Assembly (NCBI RefSeq): GCF_024124375.1
Contig: NZ_JAMXRZ010000016.1
Location: 1-49,647, forward strand
DNA: 49,647 nucleotides
DNA from: Klenkia sp. PcliD-1-E
GTDB lineage: Bacteria > Actinomycetota > Actinomycetes > Mycobacteriales > Geodermatophilaceae
Direction: 5' to 3'
In this document: positions 1 to 6,391 of the stretch, piece after piece
Layout: the number at the start of each line of letters is the position of its first letter
Numbering within the stretch: position 1 is the first letter of the stretch
Notes under the pieces: generated by a model
What the model saw: only the letters and a program-made list of their open reading frames with translations
Database searches by the model: none
Told to the model about the DNA's origin: nothing
Program-made: the position numbers and the translations under genes

Positions 1-313
1 CCGTGCTCGGCGCGGTCGTGCCGGCCGGGTCGCCCGCCGTGGACCCACCGCCGAGGACCACGCCCAGCACGACACCCACGACCAGCACGACCGCGAGTGC
101 GGCCAGGCCCGCGACCAGCGCACCGGTCCGGCGGCGCGGCCGCCGATCCTGCGGGGGCGGCGCAGGGGGAGGCGCCGGAGCGGCGGGGAACGTCGCGGTC
201 TCGTCCCGGGTGCCCAGCGCCCACGGCCCGACCACGTGCGTCGGTCGCCGGCTGCCGGGCAGGTCCGGCCCGACCGCCGGGAACTGCGAGGTCTCCCCGT
301 CCCGCGCGTTCAC
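1..313 (-). CDS. Single-pass membrane protein, N-terminal part (cut by left edge)
   Basis: I translated the reverse complement: a GTG at 313-311 opens a frame that stays open to the left edge, giving about 104 residues. Residues 1-60 are polar and proline-rich with a basic RRPRRR stretch at about 56-62. One long hydrophobic segment follows (about 64-89, Leu/Val/Gly-rich), then a Gly/Ser/Thr/Pro stretch that probably lies outside the cell. The start overlaps the stop of the cvpA-like gene by GTGA, so the two are probably translationally coupled. No family is recognised; the rest of the protein lies outside the window. It is the third gene of the envelope operon that begins at 1649. Confidence 0.6.
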   Translation of the reverse strand, partial: MNARDGETSQFPAVGPDLPGSRRPTHVVGPWALGTRDETATFPAAPAPPPAPPPQDRRPRRRTGALVAGLAALAVVLVVGVVLGVVLGGGSTAGDPAGTTAPST

Positions 314-846
314 CCAGGTCCTCCCGTCGGCAGGTGCAGGTCGGGAGTCTGCCCCCGCACCACCCGCAGTGCCTGGTCGGCGGCGTCCGCGGCCCACCCG
401 CCGACCTGGGAGTCCCGTGCCGCGGTGAGCCAGGCGCCCGCACCGCCCACCACCCCGGCCGGGCCGTCAGCGAGCAACGCCAGGCCCAGACCCAGCACGA
501 CCAGGGCGAGCACCGCACCGCCGACCGCACCGGCCAGCCGGTCCAGCACCCCCAGGTGCAGCCGGGCCACCAGTCCGGCCAGCAGGCCGCCGGCCGCGCG
601 GCCCAGGCCGGAGCCGAGGGCCGCGACGACCAGCACACCGAGGACGGTGGCCGCCACCCGGGTGCCGGCCTGGAGCGACCCGGTGAGCGCCGGCACCACC
701 GCGGTGCCGACGGCCAGGCCCACCACGAGCCCGACCACCGAGCCGGCCAGCCGCAGTCCGCCGCGCCGCCAGCCCCCCACCGCGCCGAGCACGACCAGCA
801 GCACCAGGACCAGGTCCACCCAGCCGGTGCCCACCACCGGGGTCAC
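310..846 (-). CDS. CvpA family membrane protein
   Basis: 178 residues with four hydrophobic segments at about 7-24, 29-52, 62-92 and 102-127. The opening segment ends in a GGWRRG turn and is followed by LAGSVVGLVVG, the pattern of CvpA/colicin V production proteins. In actinobacteria this fold is often fused to a trypsin-like protease (MarP type); no protease domain follows here, so this is the stand-alone form. The GTG start overlaps the upstream gene's stop (GTGA, 843-846), and its own stop overlaps the downstream start (GTGA, 310-313). The biochemical role is uncertain; a membrane or envelope stress function is inferred from the family and from the facing two-component system. Confidence 0.75.
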   Translation of the reverse strand: MTPVVGTGWVDLVLVLLVVLGAVGGWRRGGLRLAGSVVGLVVGLAVGTAVVPALTGSLQAGTRVAATVLGVLVVAALGSGLGRAAGGLLAGLVARLHLGVLDRLAGAVGGAVLALVVLGLGLALLADGPAGVVGGAGAWLTAARDSQVGGWAADAADQALRVVRGQTPDLHLPTGGPG

Positions 847-1649
847 CGGTCCGCGTCGGCGACGACCGTCGTGCCGTCGTCGGTCACCGAGCCGTGCAGG
901 TGCACCTCGTCGCCCACCGCGGGCAGGTCGGAGAGGGCGGCGGCGTCGACGTCCACCCGCAGCCCCGGCACGGTGACCACCGTCAGGTCGGTGCCGTCGA
1001 CCGCGACGACGGTGCCGTCGACGTGCGCGTCCACCTCCCGGACCGCCAGCGCCGCGCCGTCGGACACCCGGACCTCGACCCGGTCGCCGACCGCGATGTC
1101 CGCAGCCGACCCGGCGTCGGGGGCGTCACCCGCGGGCGGCGCGGGGACCTCCCCGTCGGAAGGCGCGGCCGGGGGAGCGGGGGCGTCGGAGGGCGTGCTG
1201 CCGTCGGACGGGGTGCTGCCCTCGCCCTGGCCGCTGTCCTGGCCGCTGTCCTCGCCGCTGTCCCGGCCGCTGCCCTCGCCAGCAGGACCACCGCCGGGGC
1301 CACGACCGGGGCCGCCGTCCGGTCCGCGGCCGGCACCGCCGTCCGGACCAGGACCACCCGGGCCGCCGTAGCGGGTCTCGTCGGACAGCGTCAGCTCGTG
1401 GGTCGCGCCGGTGTCGTCGGTGACGGTCAGGGACGAGTCCGACACCGCGGTCACGGTGCCGACGACGCGCTCCCCGCCGGGGCCGCGGTCGCCGGGACCC
1501 TGGTCGGTCGACGGCGCACCGGTCGAACCGGAACCGGAGCCGTCGGCCAGCGCGATGCCGCCGCCGAGCAGGACGGCGCCGGTGGCGGCGCCGCCGACGA
1601 CGGCCGCGGTCCAGCGGCGGGAACGGGGGGTGCGGGCGGATCGGGACAC
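843..1649 (-). CDS. Exported DUF5666-like protein
   Basis: 268 residues from GTG 1649, chosen because GAGGAGGA lies about 7 bases upstream; a longer frame to 1727 has no such site. A basic N terminus (residues 2-13) and a hydrophobic segment (about 14-33) ending ALADG form a signal peptide or anchor. Two beta-rich modules of the DUF5666 type are visible: the first reads GTVTAVSDSSLTVTDDTG, the second begins DGTVVAVDGTDLTVV near the C terminus. Between them lies a low-complexity Gly/Pro/Asp/Ser linker with GPDGG and DSGQDSGQ repeats. It heads a three-gene operon and diverges from a response regulator gene, so it is a plausible target of that system. Molecular function unknown. Confidence 0.7.
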   Translation of the reverse strand: MSRSARTPRSRRWTAAVVGGAATGAVLLGGGIALADGSGSGSTGAPSTDQGPGDRGPGGERVVGTVTAVSDSSLTVTDDTGATHELTLSDETRYGGPGGPGPDGGAGRGPDGGPGRGPGGGPAGEGSGRDSGEDSGQDSGQGEGSTPSDGSTPSDAPAPPAAPSDGEVPAPPAGDAPDAGSAADIAVGDRVEVRVSDGAALAVREVDAHVDGTVVAVDGTDLTVVTVPGLRVDVDAAALSDLPAVGDEVHLHGSVTDDGTTVVADADR

Positions 1650-1716
1650 GGGGTCCTCCTCGGGTCGGGTGCCACCCCCGGATCGGGGCGGCGCTGTCCC
1701 CACCGTGTGCGGTTCG

Positions 1717-1760
1717 CCTGAACCCACCCTGAAGCGGCCGGTTCTTCAGCGCACCTTCAG
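1717..1760. promoter_or_regulatory. Mirrored 11-bp-period repeats, probable response-regulator operator
   Basis: CCTGAA occurs at 1717-1722 and 1728-1733 (11 bp apart). Its complement form CTTCAG occurs at 1744-1749 and 1755-1760 (again 11 bp apart). Two direct-repeat pairs thus face each other in opposite orientation. Direct half-sites with 11-bp period are the usual geometry for dimers of OmpR/PhoB-type regulators, and such a regulator starts at 1785. The right-hand pair would cover about -41 to -25 if transcription starts at or near the GTG. Assignment to this regulator is inference. Confidence 0.6.
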
Positions 1761-1784
1761 CCCGGGGCAGGCACCATCGCTGCC

Positions 1785-2465
1785 GTGCGCAGCGACGGAA
1801 CACCCCGGCCCCGGGTCCTGGTGGTGGAGGACGAGGCAGCCATCCGGGACGCCGTGGTCACCGCGCTGGCCGACGAGGGCTGCGCGGTCGAGGGCCGCGC
1901 CGACGGCAGCAGCCTCGCCACCGACCTCGCCGGCTTCCGCCCCGACCTCGTCGTCCTGGACGTGATGCTGCCCGGCCGGGACGGGCTGGCGCTGGCCGCC
2001 GACGTCCGGAGGGCCGGGGACGCCGGCGTCGTCGTCCTGACCGCCCGCGACGCCGTCCCCGACCGGCTGGCCGGCTTCGCCGCCGGCGCCGACGACTACC
2101 TGGTCAAGCCCTTCGCGATGGCCGAGCTGGTCGCGCGGGTGCGGGCGGTGCTCAACCGCCGGGGCCGGTGGCCGGGCGCCGTGGAGGTCGGGGACCTGGT
2201 CGTGGACGAGCCGGCCGGCACCGCGACCCGGGCGGGCGCGGACCTCGAGCTGACCGCGACCGAGCTCCGGTTGCTGGGCTACCTGGTGGGCAACCGGGGC
2301 CGCACGGTCTCCAAGGTGCAGATCCTCACCCAGGTCTGGGGCTACGGGGACTACGACCCGAACCTGGTCGAGGTCCACGTCAGCGCGCTGCGCCGCAAGC
2401 TCGAGGCGCACGGGCCACGGCTGGTGCACACCGTCCGGGGGCTGGGCTACACGGTGCGGACGTGA
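1785..2465 (+). CDS. OmpR/PhoB-family response regulator
   Basis: 226 residues. The receiver domain (about 10-122) has the acidic pair E15-D16, phospho-acceptor D59 in VVLDVMLPG, switch threonine T86 and lysine K108 in DYLVKPF. The C-terminal winged-helix DNA-binding domain (about 130-225) ends with the family pattern VEVHVSALRRKLE followed by VRGLGYTVRT. No Shine-Dalgarno site precedes the GTG; a weak CACCAT -10 at 1772-1777 lies 7 bases upstream, so the mRNA may be leaderless. The stop overlaps the kinase start by GTGA (2462-2465). It diverges from the DUF5666-like operon, with mirrored repeats between them that it probably binds. Confidence 0.93.
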   Translation: MRSDGTPRPRVLVVEDEAAIRDAVVTALADEGCAVEGRADGSSLATDLAGFRPDLVVLDVMLPGRDGLALAADVRRAGDAGVVVLTARDAVPDRLAGFAAGADDYLVKPFAMAELVARVRAVLNRRGRWPGAVEVGDLVVDEPAGTATRAGADLELTATELRLLGYLVGNRGRTVSKVQILTQVWGYGDYDPNLVEVHVSALRRKLEAHGPRLVHTVRGLGYTVRT

Positions 2466-3817
2466 CCGCACCGACCCTGCGCACCGCGTCCCTGCGGCGT
2501 CGGCTGAGCCTGTGGGTGCTGGGCCTTCTGGCGGTGCTGCTCGTCGTCCTCGGCGTCACCGTCGACCTGGTGCTGGGCGCGAACCTGCGCAGCGACCTGC
2601 GCCAGCGGCTGGTGGACCGCGCGGAGATCGCCGCGGAGCTCGTCGCCCAGGGCCGGACGGACGAGGAGGTCCTCGACGCGGTCACCGGTGACACGGTGCA
2701 GGCCCAGATCGAGACCGCCGACGGGCAGCAGGTGGGGGAGCTGGAACGGCCGCGGCCCGGACCGCCCGGACGGCCGGGGCCACCGCCGCGGCAGGGCGCC
2801 GTCGTCGACACCGGTGACGCCTACGTGCTGCAGACCGAGCTCGCCGACGGCGCCCGGCTCACCCTGCTGGCCGACCAGGGACCGATCACCGACGCGGTCA
2901 CCCAGCTGCGGTGGGTCCTCGTCGTCGGGGCCGCGGCCACCCTGGCCCTCGCCGCCGTCCTGGTGAGCGCCACCGTCGGGCTCGGGCTGCGGCCGCTGGG
3001 CCGGATGACCGCGGTGGCCCGCTCCATCACCTCCGGCGACCGCGGCCGCCGGCTGCGCCCCGACCGGCCGCACACCGAGCTGGGCGCCACCGCGGCCGCC
3101 TTCGACGACATGCTCGACGAGCTCGAGGGCGCCGAGCGGACCGCGCGCCGCGCCGAGTCCGGCATGCGGGACCTGCTCGGCGACGCCGCCCACGAGCTGC
3201 GCACGCCGCTGGCCGCCGTCCAGGCCTCGGTGGAGACCGTGCTGCGCACCGACCCGGACCGCGACCGCCGGGAGGAGCTGCTGGCCGGCGCCGTCCGGGA
3301 GCTGCAGCGCTCGGGACGCCTGGTGGCCGACCTGCTCGACGTCACCCGCTTCGACAGCGGGGACCCGCCACCGCTGGACCGGCGCCCCACCGACCTGCTG
3401 GCCCTGGCCCGGGGGAGCGCCCAGCGGGTCGGCGGGCCCGTGGCGGTGACCGGCGACCCGGTCACCGCCGAGGTCGACCCCGACCGGGTCGGCCAGGTGC
3501 TGGACAACCTGCTGCGCAACGCCGTCCGGGCGGCGGGTCCGGCAGGCCACGTCGAGGTGCTGGTCCGGGCCGAGGGGGAGCACGCGTGCCTGGACGTCGT
3601 CGACGACGGGCCCGGCGTCCCCGCCGACCAGCGCGAGCGGGTCTTCGACCGGCTGGTCCGCCTGGACGCGGCCCGCAGCAGGGACGGCGGGGCCGGGCTC
3701 GGCCTGCCCATCGCCCGCGCGCTGGCCCGCGCGCACGGCGGCGACGTCGTCTGCCTGCCCGTCGACCGCGGCGCCTGCTTCCGGGTGCAGCTGCCGGTGA
3801 CCGCCGTCACGAGCTGA
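2462..3817 (+). CDS. Sensor histidine kinase
   Basis: 451 residues from the GTG that overlaps the response regulator stop. Order: TM1 (about 15-38); an extracytoplasmic loop (about 39-148) with a proline-rich patch at 96-109; TM2 (about 151-174); HAMP linker (about 175-228); HisKA dimerisation domain with phospho-acceptor H244 in HELRTPLAAV; and a HATPase_c domain with the N box NLLRNAVRAA, the G1 box DDGPGVP and the G2 box GGAGLGLPIA. This is a complete classical membrane kinase and the obvious partner of the regulator at 1785. The signal is unknown. The DUF5666-like and CvpA-like neighbours suggest an envelope cue (inference). Confidence 0.93.
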   Translation: MTAPTLRTASLRRRLSLWVLGLLAVLLVVLGVTVDLVLGANLRSDLRQRLVDRAEIAAELVAQGRTDEEVLDAVTGDTVQAQIETADGQQVGELERPRPGPPGRPGPPPRQGAVVDTGDAYVLQTELADGARLTLLADQGPITDAVTQLRWVLVVGAAATLALAAVLVSATVGLGLRPLGRMTAVARSITSGDRGRRLRPDRPHTELGATAAAFDDMLDELEGAERTARRAESGMRDLLGDAAHELRTPLAAVQASVETVLRTDPDRDRREELLAGAVRELQRSGRLVADLLDVTRFDSGDPPPLDRRPTDLLALARGSAQRVGGPVAVTGDPVTAEVDPDRVGQVLDNLLRNAVRAAGPAGHVEVLVRAEGEHACLDVVDDGPGVPADQRERVFDRLVRLDAARSRDGGAGLGLPIARALARAHGGDVVCLPVDRGACFRVQLPVTAVTS

Positions 3818-3910
3818 TGCGGGAACCCGGCGCGCGGCCCGCCCGTTCACCCGGACGAGCCGTGCCGCGGAGATGGTTGGCGTTTGCACACGCTGTCCGT
3901 CGCGCACAAC

Positions 3911-4024
3911 CGGCTCGCGTGGAGGGGAGTATCCCCCGCGGCAGCTGTCGTCAGCACGAGGTCGCCATCGACCTCCGGCACTGCCGGCCGACCCCCGGGT
4001 CGGTGGGAGAGACCTCCGGCGTTC
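3911..4024 (+). promoter_or_regulatory. yybP-ykoY (manganese) riboswitch
   Basis: The conserved yybP-ykoY elements occur in order: GGGGAGTA at 3924-3931 at the top of P1, a GTCGTCAGCACG segment at about 3946-3957 (the internal loop that contacts the metal site), and GAGACCTCCGGCG at about 4009-4021 closing P1. GGAGG (3921-3925) pairs with CCTCC (4013-4017). This family senses Mn2+ and commonly sits upstream of TerC-type transporters, as here. Recognition is by motif and spacing; no covariance model was run. Confidence 0.88.
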
Positions 4025-4042
4025 TGCTACAGACACCGGAGG
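4013..4042 (+). promoter_or_regulatory. SD-sequestering hairpin (riboswitch expression platform)
   Basis: CCTCCGG (4013-4019) is perfectly complementary to CCGGAGG (4036-4042), with a 16-base loop. The right arm contains the GGAGG ribosome binding site 6 bases before the TTG start. The left arm is also the 3' strand of riboswitch P1. The structures exclude each other, so ligand-stabilised P1 should expose the SD: a translational ON switch (inference from pairing). Confidence 0.7.
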
Positions 4043-4048
4043 CACACG

Positions 4049-5188
4049 TTGGACGTCCCGTTCTGGGTGTGGGCAGTCACGGTGGCCGCGATCGTCGGGA
4101 TGATCGTCTTCGACTTCGTCGGCCACGTGCGCACCCCGCACGCCCCCTCGCTCAAGGAGTCGGCCACCTGGTCGGCCGTCTACGTCGGCATCGCGATCCT
4201 GTTCGGGGTCGGCGTGCTGGTCTTCGCCGGCGGCGAGTACGGCGGTGAGTACTTCGCCGGCTACGTCACCGAGAAGGCGCTGTCGGTCGACAACCTCTTC
4301 GTCTTCGTGATCATCATGGCCAGCTTCGGCGTGCCGCGGGAGCTGCAGCAGAAGGTGCTGCTGTTCGGGATCGCGTTCGCGCTGGCGCTGCGCACCGTCT
4401 TCATCTTCGTCGGCGCCGCGGCCATCGAGAACTTCAGCTGGGTCTTCTACCTCTTCGGCGCGATCCTCATCTACACCGCGGTCGTGCAGGCGCGCAGCGG
4501 CGGCCACGACGAGGACGAGGAGTACAAGGAGAACGGCGTCCTGCGGTTCGTCCGCAAGGTCGTCCCGACGACCGACGAGTACCACTCGGACAAGCTGACG
4601 ACGAAGGTCGACGGCAAGCGGTTCATCACCCCGCTGATGATCGCGCTGATCGCCATCGGCACCGCCGACATCATCTTCGCCGTCGACTCGATCCCGGCGA
4701 TCTTCGGCCTGACCCAGGAGACCTTCCTGGTCTTCACCGCCAACGCGTTCTCGCTGCTGGGCCTGCGGCAGCTGTTCTTCCTCATCGACGGCCTGCTCGA
4801 CCGGCTGGTCTACCTGGCCTACGGCCTGGCGGTGATCCTGGGCTTCATCGGGATCAAGCTGGTCATCCACGCGCTGCACACCAACGAGCTGCCCTTCATC
4901 AACGGCGGTGAGCACATCACGCTGATCCCGGAGATCCCGACGTGGCTGTCGTTGCTGGTCATCCTGGCGACCCTGGTGGTCACGACCGTGCTCAGCCTCC
5001 GCAAGAACAAGAAGGACGCCGAGCGCGGCATCACCAGCCCGACCGGGCTCGAGGACAAGGGCGCCGGGCGCGACGGCCTGCACGCCCAGGGTCCCGGCGA
5101 CCGCGACGGCAGCCCGGCCGGCGCCCGCGCCGACGCCCCGCCGTCGGGCCGCACCGCCGCGGTGACCGACGGCAGCCGCGAGGGCTGA
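4049..5188 (+). CDS. TerC family transporter under a manganese riboswitch
   Basis: 379 residues from TTG 4049, chosen because GGAGG (4038-4042) lies 6 bases upstream and the frame before it runs through the riboswitch. About eight hydrophobic segments. The two TerC hallmark acidic motifs are present: DNLFVF (D81) and DSIPA (D213), within repeats typical of this fold. A charged cytoplasmic loop (HDEDEEYKEN) lies mid-protein. The C-terminal tail of about 60 residues is polar and disordered. TerC/Alx/MntP-type proteins behind yybP-ykoY riboswitches are associated with manganese export or with metallation of exported proteins; which applies here is not visible. A strong terminator follows at 5213-5247. 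Confidence 0.9.
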   Translation: MDVPFWVWAVTVAAIVGMIVFDFVGHVRTPHAPSLKESATWSAVYVGIAILFGVGVLVFAGGEYGGEYFAGYVTEKALSVDNLFVFVIIMASFGVPRELQQKVLLFGIAFALALRTVFIFVGAAAIENFSWVFYLFGAILIYTAVVQARSGGHDEDEEYKENGVLRFVRKVVPTTDEYHSDKLTTKVDGKRFITPLMIALIAIGTADIIFAVDSIPAIFGLTQETFLVFTANAFSLLGLRQLFFLIDGLLDRLVYLAYGLAVILGFIGIKLVIHALHTNELPFINGGEHITLIPEIPTWLSLLVILATLVVTTVLSLRKNKKDAERGITSPTGLEDKGAGRDGLHAQGPGDRDGSPAGARADAPPSGRTAAVTDGSREG

Positions 5189-5212
5189 TCCCGGCACCAC
5201 CCCGCACCACCC

Positions 5213-5247
5213 AGGAGCCCCACCGGACCCCGTCCGGCGGGGCTCCT
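5213..5247 (+). terminator. Hairpin terminator after first terC gene
   Basis: AGGAGCCCC (5213-5221) and CCGGAC (5223-5228) pair with GTCCGG (5232-5237) and GGGGCTCCT (5239-5247). The result is a nearly continuous 15-bp G+C-rich stem with a three-base loop and one A/C mismatch. No U-tract follows, which is usual in this kind of genome. Confidence 0.75.
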
Positions 5248-5297
5248 GTGCGTCCGACACCACGGTGCGACGCACAGCGTGGGCCCAGGCGCGCCCG

Positions 5298-5303
5298 TAC
5301 CCT
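5298..5303 (+). promoter_or_regulatory. -10 box TACCCT, leaderless-type promoter
   Basis: TACCCT fits the actinobacterial TAnnnT pattern and ends 8 bases before the GTG at 5312. There is no SD, so transcription probably begins at or next to the start codon. No clear -35 was found. Confidence 0.5.
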
Positions 5304-5311
5304 GGCCCGAC

Positions 5312-6391
5312 GTGGAGCTCCCCGTCTGGTTCGAGATCGGCACGTTCGTGGGGCTCACCGTCCTGCTGCTGGCCGACCTCGCCCTCGTCGCCCGCCGTCC
5401 CCACGAGCCCTCGGTGCGGGAGGCCAGCATCTGGGTGACCTTCTACGTCGCGCTGGCCCTGGTCTTCGGCCTGGTGCTGCTGCTGGTCACCGACGGCGAC
5501 TTCGCCACGCAGTTCTACGCGGGCTGGCTGACCGAGTACTCGCTCTCGGTCGACAACCTCTTCGTCTTCGTGATCATCATGGCCCGCTTCCAGGTGCCCC
5601 GGAAGCTGCAGCAAGAGGTCCTGATGGTCGGGATCATCATCGCCCTGGTGCTGCGCGGGATCTTCATCCTGCTCGGCGCCGCGGTGATCGAGCGCTTCAC
5701 CTGGGTCTTCTACATCTTCGGCGCGTTCCTGGTCTACACCGCGATCAACCTGGTCCGGAACCGCGGCGAGGACGAGGACTACGAGGAGAACGCCCTCATC
5801 CGCCGGCTGCGCACGGTCCTGCCGCTCACCAAGGACTTCGAGGGCAACAAGATCCGCGTCCAGCGGGACGGCAAGAAGCTCTGGACGCCGATGATCGTGG
5901 TCTTCCTGGCCCTGGGGACGACGGACCTGCTCTTCGCGCTGGACTCCATCCCGGCGATCTTCGGCCTCACCCGCGAGGCGTTCATCGTCTTCACCGCCAA
6001 CGTCTTCGCCCTCATGGGCCTGCGCCAGCTGTACTTCCTGCTCGGCGGGCTGCTCAAGCGGCTGGTCTACCTGTCGCTGGGCCTGGCGGTGATCCTGGCC
6101 TTCATCGGCGTGAAGCTGGTGCTGGAGGCGATCCACGAGAACTCGCTGCCGTTCATCAACGGCGGCGAGCCGGTCGAGGCGGTCCCCGAGATCCCGATCT
6201 GGCTCTCGCTGGTGGTCATCCTCGGCGTCCTCGTGGTCGCCACGATCGCCTCGCTGCTCAAGACCCGGGGCCAGCTGCCCCCGGCCGAGGGCACCGGCGT
6301 GGACCCCGAGCAGCAGCCCACCGGCCGCTCCGACGAGCCGGACGCCCGCCGGGACGCCGAGGCGCGGGCGCAGCGCAGCACCGAGCAGTAG
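5312..6391 (+). CDS. Second TerC family transporter
   Basis: 359 residues from GTG 5312, which sits 8 bases after a TACCCT -10 and is where similarity to the upstream paralogue begins. It carries the same hallmark motifs (SVDNLFVFVIIM and LFALDSIPAIFG), the same length of membrane core, an acidic loop (GEDEDYEEN), and a polar C-terminal tail of about 45 residues. It is a tandem paralogue of the gene at 4049 but lacks a riboswitch and lies beyond a terminator, so it is probably expressed independently. Metal substrate not determined. It converges on the amidohydrolase with only 4 bases between stop codons. Confidence 0.9.
   Translation: MELPVWFEIGTFVGLTVLLLADLALVARRPHEPSVREASIWVTFYVALALVFGLVLLLVTDGDFATQFYAGWLTEYSLSVDNLFVFVIIMARFQVPRKLQQEVLMVGIIIALVLRGIFILLGAAVIERFTWVFYIFGAFLVYTAINLVRNRGEDEDYEENALIRRLRTVLPLTKDFEGNKIRVQRDGKKLWTPMIVVFLALGTTDLLFALDSIPAIFGLTREAFIVFTANVFALMGLRQLYFLLGGLLKRLVYLSLGLAVILAFIGVKLVLEAIHENSLPFINGGEPVEAVPEIPIWLSLVVILGVLVVATIASLLKTRGQLPPAEGTGVDPEQQPTGRSDEPDARRDAEARAQRSTEQ

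Follow-up and report, generated by a model that had tools for sequence, protein, structure and literature searches.

A mirrored pair of 11-bp direct repeats as the probable operator of an OmpR-family two-component system and a divergent DUF5666-like/CvpA-like operon

Introduction

The DNA sites of OmpR/PhoB-family regulators consist of a 7-bp motif and a 4-bp spacer and are bound by a tandem dimer, as described in the available parts of two papers (PMC4832192; PMC4415409). For CopR of C. glutamicum, the available part of the source describes a single repeat with an 11-bp period, which lies in the regulator's own divergent intergenic region and from which both sides are activated (PMC3140484). 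As far as this text goes, CopRS of C. glutamicum is the closest described case found. Among the top matches listed from the open-licence PMC literature no paper described the system analysed here, and the sole listed paper that combined DUF5666 with the term 'two-component system' concerns, in its available part, magnetite synthesis.

The window, which is the whole stretch of 49,647 nt analysed here, contains a regulator-kinase gene pair that is transcribed divergently from genes for two envelope proteins. An earlier note on this DNA had pointed to repeated half-sites between the two units and had proposed them as an operator. Based on the sequence and its comparison with related genomes, we propose that the cognate OmpR-family regulator most probably binds there as two tandem dimers that face outward, switching on both its own operon and the divergent DUF5666/CvpA operon.

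Results

The genes on both sides of the intergenic region

The intergenic region at 1650-1784 comprises 135 bp and separates two divergent operons. The features of the locus are given by their position in the window.

310..846, minus strand: CvpA/Colicin_V family membrane protein (Pfam Colicin_V, 42.4 bits against a cut-off of 29.3)
843..1649, minus strand: DUF5666-like protein, Pro/Gly/Ser-rich, with one N-terminal membrane anchor by eye and a GTG start at 1649
1702..1707, minus strand: CACGGT, putative -10 hexamer for the divergent DUF5666/CvpA operon, with 10 bp between it and the left repeat
1718..1722, minus strand: outer half-site of the left repeat, CTGAA on the plus and TTCAG on the minus strand, facing the DUF5666/CvpA operon; invariant in 8/8 genus members
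1729..1733, minus strand: inner half-site of the left repeat (CTGAA on the plus strand), 11 bp from the outer one; invariant in 8/8 genus members
1745..1749, plus strand: TTCAG, the inner half-site of the right repeat, oriented towards the regulator operon; invariant in 8/8 genus members
1756..1760, plus strand: outer half-site of the right repeat (TTCAG), 11 bp from the inner one; invariant in 8/8 genus members
1772..1777, plus strand: CACCAT, putative -10 hexamer for the regulator gene, with 11 bp between it and the right repeat
1785..2465, plus strand: OmpR-family response regulator, start GTG, Pfam Response_reg and Trans_reg_C; presumed operator binder
2462..3817, plus strand: membrane histidine kinase, Pfam HAMP, HisKA and HATPase_c, overlapping the end of the regulator gene

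The receiver and the winged-helix Trans_reg_C domain of the regulator scored 87.5 and 78.9 bits in Pfam, both above the cut-off. In NCBIfam the best model was MtrA with 178 bits against a cut-off of 300, and none of the named equivalogs (MtrA, PhoB, CseB, PmrA and others) was above its cut-off in the best 25 of the 98 matched. The kinase gene is followed at 3884-6391 by genes for two consecutive integral-membrane proteins, which by their appearance resemble the TerC family.

On the other side, the DUF5666-like gene has a GAGGAG Shine-Dalgarno sequence in the window and a GGAGG-type sequence in 7/7 other genus members. The CvpA-like gene overlaps its end, was kept in 8/8 genus members and is probably co-transcribed with it. 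The operon had been labelled DUF5666-like/CvpA-like before. The CvpA part of this label stood, the protein being above the Pfam cut-off, whereas for DUF5666 (PF18914) the window protein reached 23.3 bits and stayed below the gathering cut-off of 27, which was exceeded by the divergent proteins beside two orthologues. A single-sequence AlphaFold2 model of the DUF5666-like protein had a mean pLDDT of 43.7.

The mirrored repeats in the window

The left repeat, CCTGAA at 1717-1722 and 1728-1733, and the right repeat, CTTCAG at 1744-1749 and 1755-1760, were both found with a period of 11 bp as the earlier note had reported. It had also called them exactly mirrored, and the four 5-bp cores in the window sequence are indeed exactly symmetrical about position 1739. 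The right pair extends to a perfect 7-bp repeat, CTTCAGC, with a 4-bp spacer. When the whole 17-nt arms were compared, their complementarity was just 71%, which makes them an imperfect inverted repeat; the mirror symmetry thus resides in the half-sites and not in a hairpin.

The lone CCTGAA was not enriched in the 49,647 nt (6 seen, 8.33 expected), so that the signal is the paired arrangement. The strict pair CTGAA-N6-CTGAA matched once per strand in the 4.51-Mb genome, both times at this operator, and the reversed control pattern gave 0 matches in the same 4.51 Mb. The genome-wide search for the paired motif, which had been suggested as a check, therefore confined the strict pair to this locus. 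In 60,000 dinucleotide shuffles of 1650-1784 any strict pair appeared in 2 and both pairs in 0. The mirrored repeats are real and far beyond chance.

Conservation in the genus and the order

The regulator was present in 8/9 genomes of the genus, and the ninth assembly, which is 73% complete, gave no match. In each of the 8 members with the regulator, both pairs were found and the four genes are arranged as in the window. Absence of the repeats from relatives that share the divergent pair would, according to the earlier note, have counted against its proposal; the repeats were kept in 8/8. In the genus alignment 20/20 columns of the half-sites were invariant, compared to 7/12 in the spacers within the repeats, 3/11 between the pairs and 28/92 in the flanks; the conserved parts of the flanks include stretches around both putative -10 hexamers.

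In the order, the regulator was found at E <= 1e-64 in 67/397 genomes. Upstream regions were collected from 69 order matches and from 5 of 80 named loci (at least 57% identity; 75 were left out), and after the removal of 2 duplicates the 74 regions gave 72 distinct ones, belonging to presumed orthologues with 56-100% identity. The upstream regions of the named Mycobacterium loci L062 and L064 are identical to those of loci in the order genomes G335 and G127, which places the host in the order of Mycobacterium. Strict pairs were observed on the left (distal) side in 32, on the right (proximal) side in 21 and on both sides in 16 of the 72 regions, where simulated sequences gave means of 0.003, 0.003 and 0, respectively. 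With up to one mismatch the numbers were 50, 29 and 25. The same relaxed count also speaks against our explanation, since the left pair was absent in 22/72, the right pair in 43/72 and both in 18/72. In a control with paralogues of 44-51% identity the strict pair was found in 0/19 and a one-mismatch right pair in 2.

When the orientation of the upstream gene was assigned automatically, the left pair was present in 36/44 divergent and 12/24 co-directional regions (3 of the 72 were too short and 1 had no assignment). These calls are unreliable, because 8/24 'co-directional' regions (L039, L041, L141, L150, L156, L165, L167 and L189) had a divergent candidate ORF in the hand-picked set. The post hoc correction was not used as evidence.

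Position of the repeats relative to -10-like hexamers

The sequence CACCATC was kept in 8/8 genus members in the alignment. A gap of 7 nt separates the hexamer CACCAT from the GTG at 1785, which makes a leaderless regulator mRNA probable. Across the upstream regions a -10-like xAxxxT was located exactly 10 bp past the left repeat in 31/42 deduplicated regions, and on the right side it was found in 16/21, split evenly (8 each) between spacings of 10 and 11 bp. Of the remaining spacings between 2 and 26 bp, none was seen in more than 2 regions. For these counts 8 near-identical rows were removed and the best site per region was taken. A promoter scan showed no sigma-70 consensus promoter, and a terminator scan showed no terminator-like site. 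The missing consensus is expected for activator-dependent promoters, though it is no proof.

In PhoB-type promoters about 10 bp separate the pho box from the -10 hexamer downstream of it. By analogy, the spacing between repeat and hexamer observed here appears as the layout of PhoB/OmpR-class activator sites that replace the -35 element. Each pair faces one of the two divergent units, as had been claimed, with a -10-like hexamer 10 or 11 bp past it. That the right pair overlaps the -35 position of the regulator promoter, another point of the earlier note, holds by inference from the spacing to the -10-like hexamer and is equally true of the left pair. The note had further taken the 11-bp period for the usual OmpR-family geometry, in agreement with the 7 + 4 bp given in the available parts of the two papers (PMC4832192, PMC4415409).

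The divergent protein and the kinase

Divergent ORFs were picked by hand at 33 loci, and 26 of them encode proteins that are single-anchored or secreted by eye and that are DUF5666-like and/or contain Pro/Gly-rich repeats. The divergent proteins of L143-L145 are secreted and have 39-42% identity, over the matched part, to the DUF5666-like protein of the window with little Pro/Gly repeat. Of the remaining four, L150 has a short secreted protein, L147 a CvpA protein, and L192 and L193 each a secreted protein with coiled coils. Ten divergent proteins were scanned with Pfam. DUF5666 was above the cut-off of 27 in L152 (34.5 bits) and L184 (27.7 bits) and below it in L039, L041 and L032 (21.3-21.9 bits); the other 5 of the ten had no DUF5666 match and 3 had no Pfam match at all.

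At one Mycobacterium locus (L245, G127:C25) the kinase N-terminus consists of a membrane anchor and a Pro-rich stretch that replace the usual sensor part. The anchor is homologous over 22-50 residues to the separate divergent proteins of L171, L156, L165 and L158, with BLAST E values of 2e-9, 9e-7, 1e-5 and 1e-4, respectively, in searches against the L245 kinase alone. The left-facing pair of the mirrored operator at this locus faces the fused kinase. The L245 kinase is possibly a natural fusion that links the kinase and the divergent protein. At a locus from the wider phylum (L254) a DUF5666 protein is encoded between the mirrored operator and the regulator gene; it scored 29.2 bits against the cut-off of 27, with no single stretch that passes alone. 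Because of the one fusion and the gene order, the divergent protein is proposed as an extracytoplasmic partner of the kinase, and we rate the chance that the DUF5666/Pro-rich protein has this role as roughly even.

Spread and phasing of the mirrored operator

The whole arrangement, CTGAA-N6-CTGAA-N(0-30)-TTCAG-N6-TTCAG, was searched in the order genomes and in a sample of phylum genomes. It was found in 22/397 order genomes and in 9/396 phylum-sample genomes, 4 of which, including the genome of the window, are also in the order set. The reversed control gave 0 in the 397 and the 396 genomes, and a longer gap, N(31-61), gave 0/397 in the order.

The distances between the starts of the two pairs were just 19-20, 27-30 and 38-40 bp, where 16-46 bp were permitted. 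After near relatives among the loci had been collapsed, leaving 19 offsets, 3 of them from the own genus, the concentration at a period of 10.5 bp was 0.82, a value never reached in 20,000 uniform draws that ignore shared ancestry. For G620/G600, which match at 19 bp too, the offset of 30 bp was taken. The phasing is approximate, since any period from 9.5 to 11 bp gave nearly the same value (0.80-0.82) and each cluster spans 2-4 bp. When one mismatch was allowed, offsets of 17, 51 (L173) and 58 bp (L141) also occurred, and the 58-bp one is out of phase.

Outside the genus there were 15 order loci, 14 of which were inspected as L240-L253, the fifteenth being the L150 region. A presumed orthologue of the regulator adjoins 8/15 (L241, L242, L244, L249-L252 and the L150 region), a 45%-identical regulator adjoins L240, and a related kinase adjoins L245 and L248. 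At the other 4/15 (L243, L246, L247 and L253) none of the four query proteins was found within the fetched stretch; L246 resembles L245, and L247 has an aquaporin-family (MIP) gene. Five further phylum genomes have a regulator of 36-54% identity nearby. In all 19 loci L240-L258 an xAxxxT was observed at 10-11 bp on at least one side, in 8 on both sides and in 11 on one. Against the simplest reading, L243, L245, L246 and L248, at least, have a flanking gene whose end lies at the operator, so that one pair there faces a gene end and not a divergent promoter. The mirrored element thus goes with OmpR-type systems, but it is bound neither to a single gene pair nor, in every case, to a divergent one.

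At L248 (G229) the mirrored operator is located just upstream of a gene for a haem-binding haemophore (MHB), past the end of the related kinase gene, with both genes on the same strand. Another genome, G057, has six CTGAA-N6-CTGAA sites within 22 kb (C17:131475-153288) and a seventh on contig C56. All seven start with CTGAAGA, like the CopR boxes, and two of them form the mirrored operator of L253 between divergent genes for secreted proteins without a Pfam match. This cluster of sites is possibly a metal island.

Related repeats elsewhere

A one-mismatch scan of the own genome found 31 further sites, compared to 14 for the reversed pattern. An xAxxxT at 10-11 bp was present at 9/31, namely at 5 of the 6 sites on C185 and at 4/4 on C193, and the other 22 were without it. 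In 8/9 of these the altered half-site is the second one (GTCAG, TGCAG or TACAG), and in 8/9 the hexamer is at 11 bp. We considered the 31 sites as a regulon of this regulator and counted none of them; the nine with the hexamer are on contigs with other regulators. TTCAG repeats are not exclusive to this regulator, similar ones being found near other regulators, and this stands against our explanation.

The nine sites fall in two similar clusters of the own genome, L230 (G000:C185:57000-76900) and L231 (G000:C193:1-19900), which contain genes for DUF347, BacA, a PMT-type glycosyltransferase and regulator-kinase pairs, and in one or the other genes of the VTT, UPF0014 and GtrA types. We read these sites as a second regulon with a related half-site. 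In sister genera of the same family (L005, L009, L026 and L027) TTCAG-N6-TTCAG was located before an ORF that by eye resembles an ABC-transporter ATPase and is followed by a permease-like ORF; in L009 the repeat is triple.

Discussion

The arrangement suggests that the operator is the autoregulatory site of the adjacent two-component system. The phosphorylated regulator would occupy it with a head-to-tail dimer on each of the 11-bp repeats, both dimers being directed outwards and lying on approximately one side of the helix. Each dimer would take the position of the -35 element, with the -10 hexamer 10-11 bp further on, and recruit RNA polymerase. The right dimer would drive the regulator-kinase operon in a positive feedback, probably from a leaderless message, and the left dimer the divergent operon for the secreted or membrane-anchored DUF5666-like, Pro/Gly-rich protein and the CvpA-like membrane protein. 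Binding by the cognate regulator is very likely, and activation of both promoters is likely. If the DUF5666/Pro-rich protein is the extracytoplasmic partner of the kinase, which would be its most likely role, the operator would set the regulator, the sensor and the sensor partner jointly.

We consider it improbable that the same regulator represses one or both promoters from the same sites, for example by a basal repression that is relieved by phosphorylation. Repeats over the -35 region can block the polymerase too, and in the available part of its description CutR activates or represses according to the position of its site (PMC12802291). However, a -10-like hexamer at 10-11 bp on both sides together with the missing sigma-70 consensus is the signature of an activator, and repressor sites would have no clear reason to hold such a spacing. 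Binding by another OmpR-family regulator, with TTCAG-type repeats common to paralogues, is somewhat less probable still. It would account for the nine one-mismatch sites with their hexamers, which are all on two contigs that carry other regulator-kinase pairs, and for the repeats before the ABC-transporter-like ORF in those sister genera where no orthologue reached the cut-off. Each of the nine sites, however, has one changed half-site, mostly the second, and the strict pairs accompany orthologues of this regulator (left in 32 and right in 21 of 72) and none of the 19 paralogues.

The perfect dyad symmetry of the four cores would also suit a symmetric, palindromic repressor on the inner inverted half-sites CTGAAG-N10-CTTCAG. 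This is very unlikely, as the strict offsets vary from 19 to 40 bp and many orthologues keep one pair only, so that the direct repeat is the unit. An RNA hairpin or terminator, for which the 17-nt imperfect inverted repeat might be taken, has a negligible probability given the poor complementarity of its arms, the negative terminator scan and its position upstream of both genes. The same is true of a chance repeat, against which the shuffles stand; hairpin, terminator and chance repeat are all refuted by the conservation.

Starting again from activation by the cognate regulator on two direct repeats, the mirrored operator may be a distinct element of the Actinomycetota, in which outward tandem dimers spaced in steps of about one helical turn act as one unit; we advance this tentatively and hold it to be somewhat doubtful. 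Such a unit would let the promoter of the kinase and regulator and that of the Pro-rich/DUF5666 partner fire simultaneously. The mirrored form is kept where one side alone seems to face a promoter, which fits a unit better than two independent sites. A cooperative coupling of the two dimers, through mutual contact or a shared bend of the DNA, is conceivable to a similar, limited degree.

The locus offers an exact and testable candidate operator for a two-component system without a named NCBIfam equivalog in the best 25 of the 98 matched. It would also connect a specific kinase with DUF5666, a family to which no function is assigned and whose relatives include Pro/Gly-rich membrane-anchored proteins. 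As a search pattern, the mirrored layout with its spacing has matches in genomes of the whole phylum, most of them next to OmpR-type regulators or related kinases. It could be of help in mapping two-component regulons in high-GC genomes, which have numerous regulators and little data.

The comparison with known systems is drawn from the available parts of their descriptions. CutRS was dropped, since its site is given there as TAWATAAA (PMC12802291). The pho boxes of PhoB and PhoP resemble the window in their two 7-bp motifs with 4-bp spacers and the tandem dimer; they differ in their half-sites (CTGTCAT, GTTCACC and TCACAGC) and in their physiology (PMC4415409, PMC4832192). TcrXY of M. tuberculosis is likewise described as an autoregulated two-component system that controls two small proline-rich proteins; for its site a 7-bp mirror repeat is reported, the second copy of which lies over the putative -10, and the proline-rich targets do not have this repeat (PMC10883919). 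The likeness to TcrXY, considered because of these targets, is one of analogy only, its reported site being a mirror repeat. E. coli CusRS, as described in the source for CopRS (PMC3140484), activates its own and the adjacent divergent operon; its targets, unlike those proposed here, are copper-efflux genes.

CopRS shares with the window a two-component regulator, an 11-bp-period direct repeat with a TGAA core (TGAAGATTTnnTGAAGATTT), which is apparently the sole such site in its genome, and a divergent intergenic region between regulator and target; CopR activates both sides, as is proposed here (PMC3140484). Copper regulation, which the core and the period of the CopR box had suggested, was dropped: the half-site is a different one, and none of the four genes searched is a copper gene. 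The CopRS half-site TGAAGATTT is replaced by CCTGAA/CTTCAGC without GATTT, and in place of copper genes the putative targets in the window are genes for DUF5666-like and CvpA-like proteins. The available text on CopRS gives one repeat for both promoters, at -266 to -285 from one start (PMC3140484), whereas the window has two mirrored repeats, one for each putative promoter and at a fixed distance.
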